Assembly: GCA_025360125.1 (NCBI GenBank)
Contig: JANYCU010000023.1
Span: forward strand, 1 to 61,583
Length of the DNA stretch: 61,583 nt
Direction: 5' to 3'
Source: Armatimonadota bacterium
GTDB lineage: Bacteria > Armatimonadota > Fimbriimonadia > Fimbriimonadales > Fimbriimonadaceae
In this document: piece by piece, positions 13,041 to 59,187 of the stretch
How positions within the stretch are numbered: the first letter of the stretch is position 1
Layout: each line of letters begins with the position of its first letter
The notes under the pieces: generated by a model
The model's database searches: none
What the model saw: only the letters and a program-made list of their open reading frames with translations
What the model was told of the DNA's origin: nothing
Position numbers and translations under genes: made by a program

Positions 13041-13330
13041 TTTTTGAAAGGAAGCGGGGAGTCTAAATATGTTTCTTGGAAGTGCTGCCCAAAGGCATTT
13101 ATTCTTCCGGCGACAAAATCGTCTTGCCAACTTCTCATCGTCCCCTCAGAATTAAGTTTGAACGACAGGAATCAGAATACTTTCGGCAACTTTTTGCGTC
13201 TAGGTTTCGAGGGGCTGCCGCTGCAGGCAGTTCTTCACGCCCAACCAAAGACGAAGTCGGAGGTTGCTATTGGAGTTCAATTACCCCGGATGCCCTCCGG
13301 GGGGCTTAACAAATCCAATTCACGGACGTC

Positions 13331-13375
13331 GCATGCTTAGCCGACCCCTGCAAAGCTGAGAGTCTAAGCATGTGT
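13331..13375 (+). repeat. GCATGC-AGCATG hairpin element, copy 2
   Basis: GCATGCTTAGCCGACCCC...GCTGAGAGTCTAAGCATGT. The outer stem CATGCTTAG / CTAAGCATG is perfect over 9 bp here. It has the same orientation as copy 1. Confidence 0.6.
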
Positions 13376-53354: not shown

Positions 53355-53963
53355 TTACTTCCGATAGACCACAAGGTAGTCGTAGCCTCGCGACAATGAG
53401 TCTTCGCGGATATCGATCACCGCTTGCACGCCCGATTTCGGACCGAGAATAACCGAGAATCCGGTTTTCGCGTCGCCGACGACCTTCGTGTCGCTCCACT
53501 GATGAAAACGAGCGCAGGCGAGAAGCAAAGCCTTGTACTTGCCATCGACTTTGATTGCCGCGTAAGGACTGTTTGCCGGAGCGAACATCGTGATGCGACT
53601 CGCGTTGGGCGTTGGACCCGCCTTGGTTAGCAAAGCATAGCCTCGTTTCTTGGCGTCGTCGCGGATGGCTGCTCGGGCGCGGACCGCGTTGGCCGCCGAA
53701 GTCACAAACCCGCTCGACTTCCCTTCTTCGAATTTGCCGTACGAAAGGCCGTGCTTGTCGAGGATGGTTCCGATTCTGGCCACGTCGATGGTGGCGACGG
53801 TCGCCACGCAAATCAGTTTGTCCTTGTTTGCGTCGATGGGCTTTGACATTGCCAAGTTCGACTGCCGCACGGCCTCGTGCCGGGCGATTGCTTCTTGGTT
53901 ACCGGACGAACAACCGGCGGCAACAACCGCCAACCCGAGAAACCAAATTCGCCATGCACGCAT
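53355..53963 (-). CDS. lipoprotein of unknown function
   Basis: 202 residues from ATG 53963. Signal MRAWRIWFLGLAVVAAGCSS, with lipobox VAAGC and Cys18 lipidated. The mature part contains VATVATIDVARIGTILDKHG and later RITMFAPANSPYAAIKVDGK, with no family I recognise. A start three codons upstream (ATG 53972) is possible. It lies 73 bp upstream of grpE. Confidence 0.6.
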   Translation of the reverse strand: MRAWRIWFLGLAVVAAGCSSGNQEAIARHEAVRQSNLAMSKPIDANKDKLICVATVATIDVARIGTILDKHGLSYGKFEEGKSSGFVTSAANAVRARAAIRDDAKKRGYALLTKAGPTPNASRITMFAPANSPYAAIKVDGKYKALLLACARFHQWSDTKVVGDAKTGFSVILGPKSGVQAVIDIREDSLSRGYDYLVVYRK

Positions 53964-54108
53964 TGGAAGCATTGTATCGCGTAACCGTGGGGTTGATCGA
54001 AAGATTCCTCTTAATTCCGGGAGATTGAATATCACGGTTAACTTCCAGCGTCGCAGGTGTCGCTAACGAGCGACATGGGGCCGCGCTCCGCGTCGAGCTG
54101 GTGTTGCA

Positions 54109-54799
54109 TGGCACTGTTTACGATCGCTCCGAAGCCGAGAGAAAGTAGTGAAAGAAGACAGGTAAAACAATCGAGTGCCGGATAAGCCCATCAAGTACAA
54201 ACGGCGAAAAGCATGGAACTACTCGGGCGATTCCCACTTCCTTACGTCTTCGACTCCATATCGTCGCAAATACTAGCTCGACGACCGAATTTGTCAGGCT
54301 CTTGCCGAACGCATCAATAAGGCAGCGAAAACGCACAACTTCATCGTTCTGGCCTATGTCTTTATGCCGGACCACGTTCATTTACTAATCCATCCGATGA
54401 ACGAGGTCTATGACATGGCGAAAATTCTTCAGGCGATCAAACAAGGGCCGTCCAGAACCGCAACGAACCGCAAATGGATTCCCAGTGCCTTGTGGGAGGA
54501 AGGAGGCGGTCACGATTCAAACCTTACTAATTCCAAAGAAAGGCGACACTGCATTAGTTACATACACTTCAATCCCGTTCGAAAAGACCTGGTGGCTGAG
54601 CCTTGGGAGTCGGCGAACTGGTACGTCAACGATATCGAAGGTGACGTCGAATGTCACTCGATGAGTGAGTTCTTCGAGTCTTAACAGGTTCTCTATATTT
54701 CAAGTCAAGTGAGTGACAGTGTGAGCTCAGGGGTGCTACCAGGCATTGAAGATTGTCCACTGCTTACTCTCAGCTGCGCAGCGGTCGTAAACAGTGCCA
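54109..54799 (+). mobile_element. REPtron-like unit: RAYT pseudogene within ~42-bp inverted repeats
   Basis: The left arm 54109-54150 and the reverse complement of the right arm 54758-54799 both begin TGGCACTGTTTACGA and agree at about 35 of 42 positions. The outermost 20 bases differ only once. Between them lies the REP-associated transposase gene, so the whole 691-bp unit has the layout of a single-gene element with inverted REP-like ends. A further hairpin GTCGCT-aac-GAGCGAC-like sequence lies just outside the left arm (54058-54073). No target-site duplication is evident. Confidence 0.7.
54175..54684 (+). pseudogene. REP-associated tyrosine transposase (Y1/IS200-like), one in-frame stop
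   Basis: From GTG 54175 the frame reads KRRKAWNYSGDSHFLTSSTP, YRRKY, then TAG (54274-54276, codon 34), then continues LDDRICQALAERINKAAKTH, FIVLAYVFMPDHVHLLIHPM with the HUH motif HVH, SALWEEGGGHDSNLTNSKER and ISYIHFNPVRKDLVAEPWES to TAA 54682-54684. Apart from the amber codon the protein (169 codons) is complete for a RAYT. The segment between the HUH motif and GGGHD is shorter than usual, and I cannot identify the catalytic Tyr. The amber codon should abolish full-length product unless translation restarts downstream, e.g. at ATG 54364. Confidence 0.85.
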
Positions 54800-54963
54800 C
54801 AGAAATTCCCTCTTTTTTACAATGTTAACCTCGCCCATAGGAGTGTAACGAAGATCCCGTTGCGGGACGAAAGTGGCTCGCCTAATTGAAGGGAATTTAT
54901 TCAAATCATGTACATCTGCAAACAAAACGAATCTGCAAATGGTATCGTTTCGTCTAGTAGTAA
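54800..54963 (+). other. leader region of the restriction-modification operon
   Basis: AT-rich DNA following the right inverted repeat. It contains a small hairpin CCCGTTGCGGG (about 54855-54866) and leads into the methyltransferase ATG. The promoter should lie here. No controller (C) protein gene was found. Confidence 0.35.
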
Positions 54964-55944
54964 ATGAAGCTCAAGTACATCGACTTATTTTGCGGTATCG
55001 GAGGATTTCATCTGGCAGCCAACCAAATTGCCAAGGATCGGGGTGTGCGCATGGAATGTGTTTTTGCCTCTGATATTGACAAATCGTGCCAGCTCGCATA
55101 TGAGTCAAATTTTGGCCTTGTCGTGGATGGGGATATCACGAAAATTGAAGCCGAGTCTATCCCTAGTCACGATATCTTATTTGCAGGCTTTCCCTGCCAG
55201 CCGTTTAGCATCATTGGTGGCATGAGAGGTTTTGAGGATACACGCGGCACTCTATTCTTCGATATTGCTCGAATAATAGCTGAACATAATCCCCGTGCTT
55301 TTATTCTGGAGAATGTAAAAATGCTCGTCGGTCACAAAAATGGCCAGACAATGGGGCGCATAATCGAAACACTTCATGAGCTTGGTTACCAAGTCACATA
55401 CCGTGTTCTTAATGCCCTTGAATTTGGTGTTCCGCAGAAAAGAGAACGAGTCATGATCGTCGGCTTTAAGGACCCGACTGATTTCTTATGGCCCCATGGC
55501 GGTATACCAATGAGACCGTTGAAGGAGATATTGGAGCCTGAAGTGGACGTGAAATATCTGGCTTCTGACCGTATTCGGAACTCTCGACAAGCGTGGCATG
55601 AAAAAGATGTGGAGCCAACCATTTGGCATGAAAACAAGAGCGGCAATGTCAGCAAATACCCCTTTTCTTGTGCATTGAGAGCCGGAGCTAGTTACAATTA
55701 CTTGCTGGTAGACGGAGAAAGAAGGTTAACAGAAAGAGAAATGCTGCGCCTCCAAGGTTTTCCCGAGAGTTTCAAAATCGTATGTAACTATGGTGACACC
55801 CGACGGCAGGCTGGCAATTCGGTTGCTGTACCCATGATTGCCGCTGTGCTCGATCGGGTGATAGATAGCCTGAAATTAGGAGCACCAGAATATCAAGCTG
55901 AGAAAGTAGGTCAATATGAAATGGTGATGGAGAAGCATCGTTGA
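54964..55944 (+). CDS. DNA (cytosine-5) methyltransferase of a type II R-M system
   Basis: 326 residues, typical of a compact M.HhaI-like m5C enzyme. Motif I YIDLFCGIGGFHLAA (6-20), motif IV GFPCQPFS with catalytic Cys78, motif VI ENV (116-118), motif VIII VPQKRERV (157-163), variable target-recognition region about 170-250, motif IX RRLTEREMLRLQGFP and motif X QAGNSVAVP (282-290). All core residues are intact, so it should be active. It modifies cytosine in an unknown site to protect against the nuclease encoded next door, whose start overlaps this stop (TTGA). Confidence 0.95.
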   Translation: MKLKYIDLFCGIGGFHLAANQIAKDRGVRMECVFASDIDKSCQLAYESNFGLVVDGDITKIEAESIPSHDILFAGFPCQPFSIIGGMRGFEDTRGTLFFDIARIIAEHNPRAFILENVKMLVGHKNGQTMGRIIETLHELGYQVTYRVLNALEFGVPQKRERVMIVGFKDPTDFLWPHGGIPMRPLKEILEPEVDVKYLASDRIRNSRQAWHEKDVEPTIWHENKSGNVSKYPFSCALRAGASYNYLLVDGERRLTEREMLRLQGFPESFKIVCNYGDTRRQAGNSVAVPMIAAVLDRVIDSLKLGAPEYQAEKVGQYEMVMEKHR

Positions 55945-56675
55945 ATCCTCGACTTAGAAGCGTTGTCAAAGTTCCTGCACCATATCCTCTGAATGAATTC
56001 ACCAATCAAATTTTGATCTCAATTGCGCAACAACTAGTAGCAGCCCGATTCGCAAGGAGACTCACTGATTTTATTGGCGAGGAATGGGAGAGGGCCTTTG
56101 CGCATGCGATCGGAGCTGAATGGCATCCGTCAAATGTGGGCTTAGATGACGTCCAACTTCAGAATTGCTGTTGGGGTGCAAAAACAGTCAAGGCGACCAA
56201 GCCCTTTACACAACCATCAGTACGACTTATTAGCGGTCGGAACAGTCCTGCGTTCTCATTTGGGGATGCAAATGTTAAGGAAATTTCACCAGCTGAGCTC
56301 GGTGAAAAGATTCTTTCGATCTGGAATGAGCGTGTCGGTTCAGTTCGCGCTAAATTTAACCACGTGAGGACTGTTGTGCTGCTAAAGGGACCCGACCTGT
56401 TGAGTGCCGCTGTATTTGAAACCGACACTATCCTCTATCAAGCTGATGCATACAATTGGTTGTGGAATAAGAATGGAAACTTAGTTGGGACCGATGAACA
56501 TGGTGCGAACCACTTTACTTGGCAACCTCACGGATCGCAATTCACAATTCACGAGAAAGTCCCAGCAAAACGACACAAGATCGCCATTTCGCCGCCAGAA
56601 AATCTCAGGGACGTTTCGACCCAAGAACTTTTGGAGTTGATTTCGTTTGACTCTAGCTGGATCAAAATAAGTTAA
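55941..56675 (+). CDS. putative type II restriction endonuclease
   Basis: 244 residues from TTG 55941, overlapping the methyltransferase stop by 4 bp. The sequence contains GLDDVQLQNCCWGAKTVKAT, an acidic cluster followed by a W-G-A-K segment, which could be a PD-(D/E)xK-type catalytic site, and VRLISGRNSPAFSFGD, a phrase I associate with type II nucleases. The assignment rests on these patterns plus the tight coupling to an m5C methyltransferase. Specificity is unknown. Translational coupling would keep nuclease expression behind methylase expression. A+T content looks higher than in the surrounding housekeeping genes. Confidence 0.75.
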   Translation: MNPRLRSVVKVPAPYPLNEFTNQILISIAQQLVAARFARRLTDFIGEEWERAFAHAIGAEWHPSNVGLDDVQLQNCCWGAKTVKATKPFTQPSVRLISGRNSPAFSFGDANVKEISPAELGEKILSIWNERVGSVRAKFNHVRTVVLLKGPDLLSAAVFETDTILYQADAYNWLWNKNGNLVGTDEHGANHFTWQPHGSQFTIHEKVPAKRHKIAISPPENLRDVSTQELLELISFDSSWIKIS

Positions 56676-56689
56676 GGGAATCCGTTGTG

Positions 56690-56777
56690 GCGAGCCGCTT
56701 CGTGGGCTGGGTTATCTTGCGTGGCACTTGCTCCGACCTCTGCGTCGAACGAAGTGACGCTGGGAGAAGCCAGTGGA
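56690..56777 (+). repeat. repeat upstream of secreted ORF, copy 1
   Basis: Contains CGTGGGCTGGGTTATCTTG, GTGGCACTTG, and GAAGTGACGCTGGGAGAAGC followed by CAGTGGA. All these blocks recur in the same order at 57639-57749. The 3' block can fold as CTGG-gagaag-CCAG. It ends 42 bp before the start codon of the next gene. Confidence 0.75.
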
Positions 56778-56819
56778 TTAGTCGTTTCATCGCCGTTGGA
56801 ACGGTGTTATAATCCGGAA

Positions 56820-57605
56820 ATGATTATATTGTCGAGCCTAATTGCCTTAACCATGACTGAACCTAGTTTCGTAAAGGATTACGCGGGTTTATGGACCGAC
56901 GCAAACGGAAATTTGTTGGCCGTCCAGCGAGGAATCGGGATCAGCTTCATCCAAGATGAATATTGTTTTGTTGTTGACAAAATCAACATAAACGCAAATG
57001 GTGCGTTCTATTGCCGATGGTTTGGAAGAAAGCCAGTTATGAGATCTTCGACTACTGCCATTACGGCAACTTTTTTCGACCCTGACGCTCCAGAAAGTTC
57101 ACCTAAGACAGGTGAAGGATTAATTACCCCTGGAACGCCAAATGGCCGAGGACAAATCCATAATTTCCAACTCGATTTTCGGAGTTTTAGCGGTTCGAGC
57201 ATGATTTATGGCGGGTTTGGTTACATATGTCCGACTACGAATGTGACTATGGCCGGCACCTTTGGTGGAGAGATTATGAAAATCTCGCTTGATGAAAAGG
57301 CAGCCAAAGGAGATGCGGCTAAGGATGAAGTTCACGAATACAGTGGAACCATCGAGATAAATGCTTTGAAAGGTATCGTCAAAGCAACCAGTCGGTTTTT
57401 GGCCGGTCAGGGAGAAATTATTAACCCAGTCACGAACGCCGTTGTTGGTAATATTTCGATGGCTTGGTGTCCGAGTAAGAAGTTTGTTTCTCAAATGATG
57501 AACTCTGAAGATTATCGAACGGACAACTTACGTTTGTATGTGTATTTGAAAGACAAGACATTTCCAAATGGAGCTTTTCGTGACCTAAAGCGAAATCCCG
57601 ACTAA
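56820..57605 (+). CDS. hypothetical exported protein
   Basis: 261 residues from ATG 56820; the frame extends upstream but only through the repeat. A weak hydrophobic N-terminus (MIILSSLIALTMTEPS) may be a signal peptide. The body is beta-rich with FVKDYAGLWTDANGNLLAVQ, IHNFQLDFRSFSGSSMIYGG, TMAGTFGGEIMKISLDEKAA and a second half that resembles the first only loosely. No family recognised. Confidence 0.55.
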   Translation: MIILSSLIALTMTEPSFVKDYAGLWTDANGNLLAVQRGIGISFIQDEYCFVVDKININANGAFYCRWFGRKPVMRSSTTAITATFFDPDAPESSPKTGEGLITPGTPNGRGQIHNFQLDFRSFSGSSMIYGGFGYICPTTNVTMAGTFGGEIMKISLDEKAAKGDAAKDEVHEYSGTIEINALKGIVKATSRFLAGQGEIINPVTNAVVGNISMAWCPSKKFVSQMMNSEDYRTDNLRLYVYLKDKTFPNGAFRDLKRNPD

Positions 57606-57638
57606 ATTTGACGTTCGACGGGTTACTGAGTGAATGGG

Positions 57639-57749
57639 AACAAGCCACTTTCGTGGGTGGGTTATCTTGAGTGGCACTTGGTCCAACCACGGTTGAACTG
57701 AAAAATACGAGGGACGAGTGGATCGAAGTGACGCTGGAATAAGCCAGTC
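57639..57749 (+). repeat. repeat upstream of secreted ORF, copy 2
   Basis: Contains CGTGGGTGGGTTATCTTG, GTGGCACTTGG, and GAAGTGACGCTGGAATAAGC followed by CAGTCA. It matches copy 1 except for a longer middle segment. CCACTTTCGTGG at its left can fold. It ends 22 bp before the next gene's ATG. Confidence 0.75.
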
Positions 57750-57770
57750 AATTCCATGCTAGAATTCGAT

Positions 57771-58274
57771 ATGACTGCGACCTTATTGGCTCTTGCCGTG
57801 CTCGGGCTTCAGCAACCAAAGACACAAACCGACCGTGAACTTGAGCGATTTAAGGGAATAAAGAAAATTTACTCACTTGGAGCTTATATTACTGGCCCCA
57901 GGAGTTTAGATTCAAAAGGAACTGAAGAGCGTCTCAAGAATATTCTCGAATTAAAGTTAAGATCGGTCAAAATTAAGGTCGGCGACAATGAAGACAAGGC
58001 AACGATCGATTCGCCAATGATGTATTTCAAAGTGGATGTCAAAGATTTCAACGGGACAGTTGGTCTGGCGCAGGTCGAACTCAAAGTGGAAGAAAATGCA
58101 ATTTTAATGAGATCGGACTTAACTAAGCATCCAATCGTTGCAATGGCAATAACATATGAACGACTAAAACCAATAATGGTTCATGCAAACAGTTTTGAAC
58201 AAGATGTAGCTCAAGCCGCTGAAGGATTCATGGACGAATTCAATAATATCTACTTGCGGGCAAATGAAAATTGA
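57771..58274 (+). CDS. hypothetical exported protein
   Basis: 167 residues from ATG 57771 (MTATLLALAVLGLQQPKTQT), or five codons earlier. Probable short signal peptide. The body (LERFKGIKKIYSLGAYITGP, LKNILELKLRSVKIKVGDNE) is mixed alpha/beta and no family is recognised. It is preceded by the second copy of the local repeat. Confidence 0.5.
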   Translation: MTATLLALAVLGLQQPKTQTDRELERFKGIKKIYSLGAYITGPRSLDSKGTEERLKNILELKLRSVKIKVGDNEDKATIDSPMMYFKVDVKDFNGTVGLAQVELKVEENAILMRSDLTKHPIVAMAITYERLKPIMVHANSFEQDVAQAAEGFMDEFNNIYLRANEN

Positions 58275-58364
58275 TGTTACGTCGAGTCACTTAGTGAGAG
58301 GGGGTCTTTCCGGGTGGTCCCGATTCGGCAAAGCCTCTCGGGATGCCGCTGAGACGGCACACGC
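58275..58364. other. short gap with hairpins between convergent genes
   Basis: Contains small inverted repeats (GGGTCTTTCCGGGTGGTCCC region, and GCCG-ctgaga-CGGC at about 58344-58357) without T-runs. Possibly a weak bidirectional terminator. Confidence 0.35.
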
Positions 58365-58944
58365 TCAGGCCTTCTTCGCCAGATAGTAATAGTTCTCGCC
58401 TTCGTCGACCATGGTTCCGACCAGTTCAAGGCCATCCGCTCGAAGCAAATTCTCGTACGCCGCCTGCCCCAGCGAGCATGATTCGTAGCCCGTCATCTCG
58501 TCTCGCCAGCGGCAAGCGTCCCGAGGGGAGGTGAACAGAAAGCTTCCGCCCGAATTCAGCGCCTGGGCGACTTTGGCGATCAGGTTCAGTTGCCCCGACT
58601 CGCTGAGGAGGAACATGAGGCCCACCGAGACAACCGCATCGAACGTGCGGTCGAAGAACCAGGAATCCTCGACCGTGTTGCACTCCACGGTTGCGGTCGG
58701 GAACCGATGCCGAAAATCATCGACCAGAGATTCGGAGGCGTCGACGCCGTAGAGCGTGAATCCCATCTGAATGAGGGTTTCGGAAAATGGGGACGCCATT
58801 CCCGCATCCGATGTCGAGGATGGCAGTGCCGGGAGTCAGCGATTTGGCCCACTCGCGAACGGTGCCAGCCCCAATGTGTGCCGAGCGAGTTTGGGTGTAG
58901 GCGTGAGCGATCGCCTCGTAGCCGTTCGACTTGTCCGTCTTCAT
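58365..58944 (-). pseudogene. SAM-dependent class I methyltransferase, frameshifted
   Basis: The 5' part begins at ATG 58944 (MKTDKSNGYEAIAHAYTQTR) and includes motif I ILDIGCGNGVPI. The 3' part, in another frame and ending at 58365, continues GFTLYGVDASESLVDDFRHR (motif II), FDAVVSVGLMFLL and LNSGGSFLFTSPRDACRW. The two halves of one 193-codon protein join around 58785-58800, in the run CCCCATTTTCC, through one surplus base. Either the gene is broken or there is a base error in a homopolymer. The substrate is unknown; the pattern fits small-molecule methyltransferases (Methyltransf_11/25). Confidence 0.8.
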
Positions 58945-58997
58945 CGGTTTGATTTTACATGGGAGGGGTGGGAAGTAAAGTCGGATTTTAAGAAGGA

Positions 58998-59135
58998 GAC
59001 ATCGAAGCAGGCTTCGAAGGCCAAAGCCCTCGCAGGCTTCTGGGAACTCCGCAACTCTTCCTCTGCCCACGCAACAATTGGAAGACATCGAAGCAGGCTT
59101 CGAAGGCCAAAGCGCTCGCAGGCGAGCGCACTCCA
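58998..59135 (-). repeat. two copies of the two-hairpin repeat, opposite orientation
   Basis: 58998-59037 and 59084-59123 are direct repeats, 39 of 40 bases identical, 86 bp apart. Read on the minus strand the right-hand copy is TTTTGGAGTGC, hairpin GCGCTCG-cctg... CGAGCGC, CTTTGG, CC, and hairpin TCGAAGC-ct-GCTTCGA, the same architecture as 8276-8325 and 9022-9071 with entirely different stem sequences. The left-hand copy has a damaged first hairpin. Confidence 0.7.
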
Positions 59136-59160
59136 AAAATCGCTTCGCGATCAAAGACTA

Positions 59161-59187
59161 TCCGGGCGGGGACGCCCAGTCTCCCAA
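59161..59187 (-). repeat. GGGAGACTGGGC hairpin repeat, copy 2
   Basis: On the minus strand TTGGGAGACTGGGC-gtcccc-GCCCGGA, starting immediately at the stop of the GH32-like gene. It matches 12942-12970 except in the loop. It may serve as that gene's terminator although no T-run follows. Confidence 0.65.

Follow-up and report, generated by a model that had tools for sequence, protein, structure and literature searches.

How is a broken RAYT (REP-associated tyrosine transposase) gene between inverted repeats to be explained: as a gene that stays in its place while its REPs move, or as the remains of an element that once moved as a whole? This question is raised by a locus in the 61,583-nt stretch of DNA that we have analysed (the window; contig C43 of a genome assembly of 4.13 Mb in 58 contigs). 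Our answer is that it is probably a dead member of one lineage within a family of RAYT transposons, a family that includes miniatures derived by deletion; the genome is Fimbriimonas-like, and members of the family seem to have moved in it.

An earlier note on this sequence had described imperfect inverted repeats of about 42 bp, matching at about 35 of 42 positions, and this was confirmed: the arms (54109-54150 and 54758-54799) have 42 nt each, are 86% complementary and are separated by 607 nt, and TGGCACTGTTTACGA is exact in both. The top ungapped 42-nt inverted match within 54000-54900 reaches 36 of 42 positions, whereas none of 300 dinucleotide shuffles exceeded 30 (mean 25.6). The arms had also been regarded as unusually long, a description that does not fit their anatomy. 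Each arm is a complete REP by itself, a single hairpin of 43-45 nt. Its GTGG (which reads ATGG in the left arm) is followed by a stem of 10 bp with a tip of 19 nt. A further outer hairpin on each side had been missed. The reading of the arms as plain long terminal repeats was dropped for an anatomy of REP plus outer hairpin. By comparison with element ends of the same genome, the element occupies about 54067-54882, which is larger than the arm-to-arm span, with a small outer hairpin beyond each REP, clear on the right and decayed on the left. Its parts are given here, R1 being our covariance model of the REP:

54067..54882, forward strand: whole element (outer hairpin, REP, RAYT pseudogene, REP, outer hairpin), from comparison with element ends of the same genome; the left limit is approximate, that end being decayed.
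54067..54107, forward strand: left outer hairpin and spacer, decayed, assigned by eye against the end consensus RCRAGYCAC..GTGRGC; it folds no better than shuffles.
54108..54152, forward strand: left REP, decayed, with ATGG replacing GTGG; R1 57.2 bits (the sequence is itself in the model).
54175..54684, forward strand: RAYT pseudogene with a GTG start, an amber codon 34 at 54274-54276, and the HVH motif and YIHFNPVRK kept; from frame reading and profile matches.
54756..54800, reverse strand: right REP, intact, with GTGG, a 10-bp stem and a GCGCAGC tip; R1 67.7 bits (again a sequence of the model).
54830..54882, reverse strand: right outer hairpin GGCGAGCCAC...TGGGCGAGGTTA, with an enlarged tip, up to the element boundary AGTGGCTCGCC; from comparison with other element ends.

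The frame that runs from the GTG at 54175 to the stop ending at 54684 contains one internal stop only, the TAG of codon 34, and the PF01797 match found in the whole-genome search (39.8 bits) spans it. The 106-aa piece that follows the amber codon scores 49.5 bits with NCBIfam NF047646 (REP_Tyr_transpos), below the curated cut-off of 80. The DH[VI]H motif and the tyrosine within YI..N[PA]V.K, which hold the catalytic residues of RAYT, are present in all six proteins compared, the window copy among them. The nearest named RAYT relative lies in the MAG 'uncultured Fimbriimonas sp.' (63% identity), hence our description of the host as Fimbriimonas-like. The arms therefore enclose, as had been claimed, exactly one gene, a RAYT, and the REPtron layout of one RAYT gene between inverted REPs was also borne out. 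The gene had further been considered full length apart from codon 34, and its loss of activity recent. The amber codon is there, but it is not the only lesion, as four residues are missing in the protein alignment with five relatives and the left REP lacks GTGG; because both the left REP and the left outer hairpin have decayed too, a recent loss could be upheld only in part. The window copy is thus a dead member of a RAYT element family.

Further copies of the arm and intact RAYT relatives were both looked for and found. Besides the two arms, the exact 15-mer is present at one other place in the genome, C3:1221. The model R1 rests on eight sequences (the two arms of the window and six others of the same genome, whose scores are high by construction) and yields at least 107 matches in the own genome at E<=1, a lower bound, as 150 of 815 candidates were scored. 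At E<=1e-4, where stricter filters make the counts lower bounds too, there are at least 74 places in the own genome, 23 in G002 and 64 in G009, all three belonging to the same genus; the remaining 58 of the 61 genomes searched have none. The hairpin is supported by covariation: 4 of 10 stem pairs vary on both sides among the eight REPs of the model, in which 93.8% of the paired cells can pair against 80.3% in shuffled alignments (none of 500 shuffles reaches the real value), and a set of 23 ungapped REPs from the own genome has 91.7% of its cells paired, when 1000 shuffles gave 87.4% at most. Folded as single sequences, eight REPs are mostly unremarkable against shuffles, with z-scores from -3.06 to 0.23. 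Most REP tips hold GCGNAGC, from which the left arm of the window and some others deviate. As d(GCGAAGC) is described as an extra-stable DNA mini-hairpin with a GNA loop in the available text of PMC4686876, such a tip would favour single-strand folding in most REPs. In the REPs of L232, L234, L228 and L230 an inserted, partly self-complementary sequence lies in the hairpin, mostly at the tip, and the right outer hairpin of the window is similar; these inserts suggest that the tips grow while the stems are kept. The window also contains two solitary REPs:

13328..13374, forward strand: solitary REP of the CATGCTTAG-stem type; R1 30.5 bits, E 9.1e-7.
56721..56777, forward strand: solitary REP of the L015/L016 type that overlaps the start of a predicted ORF; R1 24.4 bits, E 5.6e-5.

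Regarding the transposase, the own genome has 22 Y1_Tnp matches, and five other RAYT genes (L010, L013, L015, L016, and L017) have open frames and group with the window gene; the RAYTs of the own genome, window copy included, share 54-59% identity with L010. L010 (81.6 bits) and L013 (86.5 bits) lie above the NF047646 cut-off of 80 and L017 (70.9 bits) below it, and a sequence search with L010 retrieved solved IS200-type transposases (E 2e-4) and, weakly, TnpA_REP 4er8 (E 0.036). REPs flank both sides of L013, L015, L017 and the window RAYT, and L013 sits in a complete element, C15:7595-8365, that consists of outer hairpin, REP, gene, REP and outer hairpin. The right outer hairpin of L010 is not clear and one side of L016 is cut by the contig start. 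The L015 and L016 elements (C48 and C22) share 93.9% identity along 709 bp, and the similarity ends at the right outer end, the one boundary visible in this pair, as the left end of one copy is cut by the contig start. In a small RAYT tree the window RAYT was not clearly joined to the G009 RAYT that bears the same REP stem, and this tree gave no support for co-inheritance of RAYT gene and REP type.

Several other genes and fragments were observed. C44 carries a truncated RAYT fragment, and at L232:939-1415 a frame that resembles L017 at its start is unrelated past about 60 residues, another truncated copy. Beside the L010 RAYT, at L010:2250-2450, there are short units in which its left end is linked to a different type of end, probably very short derivatives. 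L012 (G000:C37:57800-58126) is a divergent Y1 transposase with different inverted arms (17 nt perfect, TCAGCTACTGAGGCTAA), possibly a separate end type. In another tree, five Y1_Tnp proteins of the own genome, L018-L022, form a second group, near which no GTGG REPs were found.

Outside the REPs of related elements we have found a second conserved hairpin, RCRAGYCAC-NNN-GTGRGC, and it is here that the element boundary becomes visible. We aligned 50 distinct ends, all from the collected loci of the own genome and picked out by a regular expression that fixed some of the inside letters and left the outside letters free. Positions -25 to -3 contain at most 0.13 bit each, position -2 contains 1.3 bits and position -1 contains 1.72 bits, mostly CG (C at -2 in 44 of 50 ends and G at -1 in 48), and information stays high inside. 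A 20-letter pattern of the outer hairpin, with up to 2 mismatches, has 88 occurrences in the own genome, where the reversed control has 0, and 0 to 8 in each of 19 other genomes of the genus that were searched. Positions 6 and 16 of the 48 ends with a triloop are T-A in 21 and C-G in 27, with no mismatch; as the expression allowed only C/T and A/G there, the result lies in the joint pairing and not in the letters, and many of these ends share descent. All four outer hairpins that were folded did no better than shuffles.

The same ends are found in many short copies. When the own genome was searched with one of them, 91 pieces matched, and 17 deletion copies were aligned with their evident parent, the L013 element; 14 have one type of junction and 3 another. 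In all 17, about codons 1-44 and 161-176 of the parent gene are left, both REPs are present and the middle of the gene is gone. Both outer ends are present in 13; of the others, two reach the end of their contig and two have one outer end incomplete. Shorter partial pieces (e.g., C51:21223, C18:2, C3:2, C34:14372, C22:3940, C10:20301, C53:64198, C54:82528) were left out of this alignment. The deletion junction lies, by eye, at a short shared sequence, as expected of microhomology deletion. The miniature copies are 71-86% identical to the query copy, so that any movement of theirs would not be recent in most cases. Many element copies lie at contig ends (G000 C3, C8, C18, C22, C37, C45, C48, C53), where the assembly probably breaks, so that the copy numbers are lower bounds. 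The end of one miniature element abuts the left side of the window element:

54031..54067, reverse strand: right-end REP of a miniature element, truncated; R1 27.7 bits over 54031-54074, and 86% identity over 54032-54067 to a miniature element.

We have also compared loci with relatives. At the grpE-glmM-coaX locus the window RAYT is absent in all five relatives examined, in which no REP was found at E<=0.1 and no convincing RAYT match either (a stray one at E 0.008 in L285, the others weaker). The same 691 bp at the orthologous site in all relatives, which would have spoken against mobility according to the earlier note, was thus not what we found. The empty site that it proposed to look for fared less well: the element is absent from these relatives, but no clean empty site was seen. 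In G009, gh32 is directly beside grpE, against about 5.8 kb between them in the window, element included; this difference is the absence of the whole region and not a clean empty site. The region in question (53375-59187) also contains a C5 cytosine methyltransferase (PF00145; PADLOC MTase_II 338 bits) and genes that matched nothing in the libraries tried. At the ftsZ locus, compared with six relatives, G002 is without the miniature element, but the next gene there differs. When the joined flanks of 13 elements were compared with the collected loci, no spanning, unoccupied copy was retrieved, and no target duplication was evident.

From these ends, with their sharp boundary and stem covariation, the several open-frame RAYT lineages in one genome and the many internally deleted copies, we propose the following. 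A living member consists of a single RAYT gene (about 172-177 codons) flanked by compound ends in inverted orientation, and each end is made, from the outside in, of the boundary CG, the small hairpin RCRAGYCAC-NNN-GTGRGC, a spacer, a guide-like GTGG and the REP hairpin, with a stem of 10 or 11 bp and a tip that is usually CTGCGNAGCTG. The RAYT protein, in which the HUH and tyrosine residues are present, may bind the hairpins as single strands and cut single-stranded DNA near them, at a site chosen by GTGG. It would move full elements and, in trans, their deletion derivatives; the miniatures would have arisen by deletion at short shared sequences, with loss of the middle of the gene, and the products would have kept moving. 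Movement itself is strongly suggested by the sequence comparisons. For TnpA_REP, the available text of PMC8266576 describes cutting close to a hairpin, the site being CT or CA, or CC once GTAG had been changed to GTGG in one system.

The alternative that survives best, although we consider it improbable, is a conventional REPtron, that is, an immobile RAYT gene that happens to have flanking REPs, of which only short units or pairs moved, as described for proteobacteria. The elements are like REPtrons in that one RAYT-family gene lies between inverted hairpins with a 5' GT[AG]G and REPs are dispersed in the genome, where they occur also without a RAYT. Furthermore, RAYTs are treated as domesticated, single-copy genes, and REPtrons as not transposing as a unit, in the available text of the literature (PMC8049555, PMC6006769, PMC3116915), with vertical inheritance in that of PMC8049555. 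However, here a second conserved hairpin outside each REP forms the boundary, which thus lies outside the REPs, and one genome contains several RAYT lineages, two copies of which are 94% alike, as well as deletion derivatives with RAYT coding remnants inside. The C48/C22 pair and the 17 derivatives depart from a gene that is single copy and does not move as a unit, to the extent that we infer movement from them.

Much less probable is that the copies were spread by recombination or segmental duplication between repeat ends and not by transposition. Several copies do lie near contig ends or side by side, and ends that are partial or adjoin one another are frequent, but the letters outside the 50 ends are almost free of information up to an abrupt start at the same base, and flanks without shared sequence count against duplication because duplicated segments would share their flanks. 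That the 42-nt arms are a chance match or a simple terminator pair, as the mostly unexceptional folding energies of single sequences might suggest, is excluded for practical purposes by the shuffles, the extra match at C3:1221 and the genome-wide family of at least 74 REPs.

A family of mobile RAYT elements, the reading that we prefer, can be compared with other known systems. The TIRtron/TIRYT (Di Nocera et al. 2013; PMC3733652) also has a RAYT-like gene flanked by long terminal inverted repeats, and the repeats of ppf 607 of P. putida and pfs 4255 of P. fluorescens, in which a degenerate REP is joined to an unrelated stem-loop (PMC3733652), are the nearest precedent for the compound ends described here. 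In contrast, the REP in our elements is of the GTGG type and mostly intact, the boundary was obtained from 50 ends, and parts of the transposase gene survive in the short copies. REPINs are also inverted pairs of REPs, probably moved in trans by a RAYT according to the available text of PMC3116915, and the paired arrangement itself is present in the elements here; our miniatures differ in their length of about 335-485 bp, outer hairpins included, and in the degenerate RAYT remnant inside. IS200/IS605 elements share the Y1 HUH transposase family and small hairpins near the ends but, as far as the available text of PMC2817692 goes, they have no terminal inverted repeats, whereas the ends here are inverted. 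What is new is that three features occur together: compound ends with a sharp boundary, more than two RAYT lineages in one genome, and miniatures that keep both RAYT extremities. In the open-licence literature, to which our search was limited, we have found no report of RAYTs of this kind in Armatimonadota.

The descent of REPINs from REPs that flanked an ancestral autonomous element has been put forward as a hypothesis only, in the available text of PMC3116915. We lean slightly towards the idea that Fimbriimonas-like bacteria keep this ancestral state of REPIN/RAYT systems, with autonomous two-hairpin RAYT transposons and internal-deletion miniatures that retain both extremities of the gene. 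Several RAYT elements with defined ends, together with their derivatives, make the hypothesis of REPIN origin directly testable, and the elements supply exact substrates for biochemistry, with both hairpins, the boundary and the guide. The main interest lies in the family around the window copy, which suggests that this class of gene, for which a fixed place is the usual description, may move whole.
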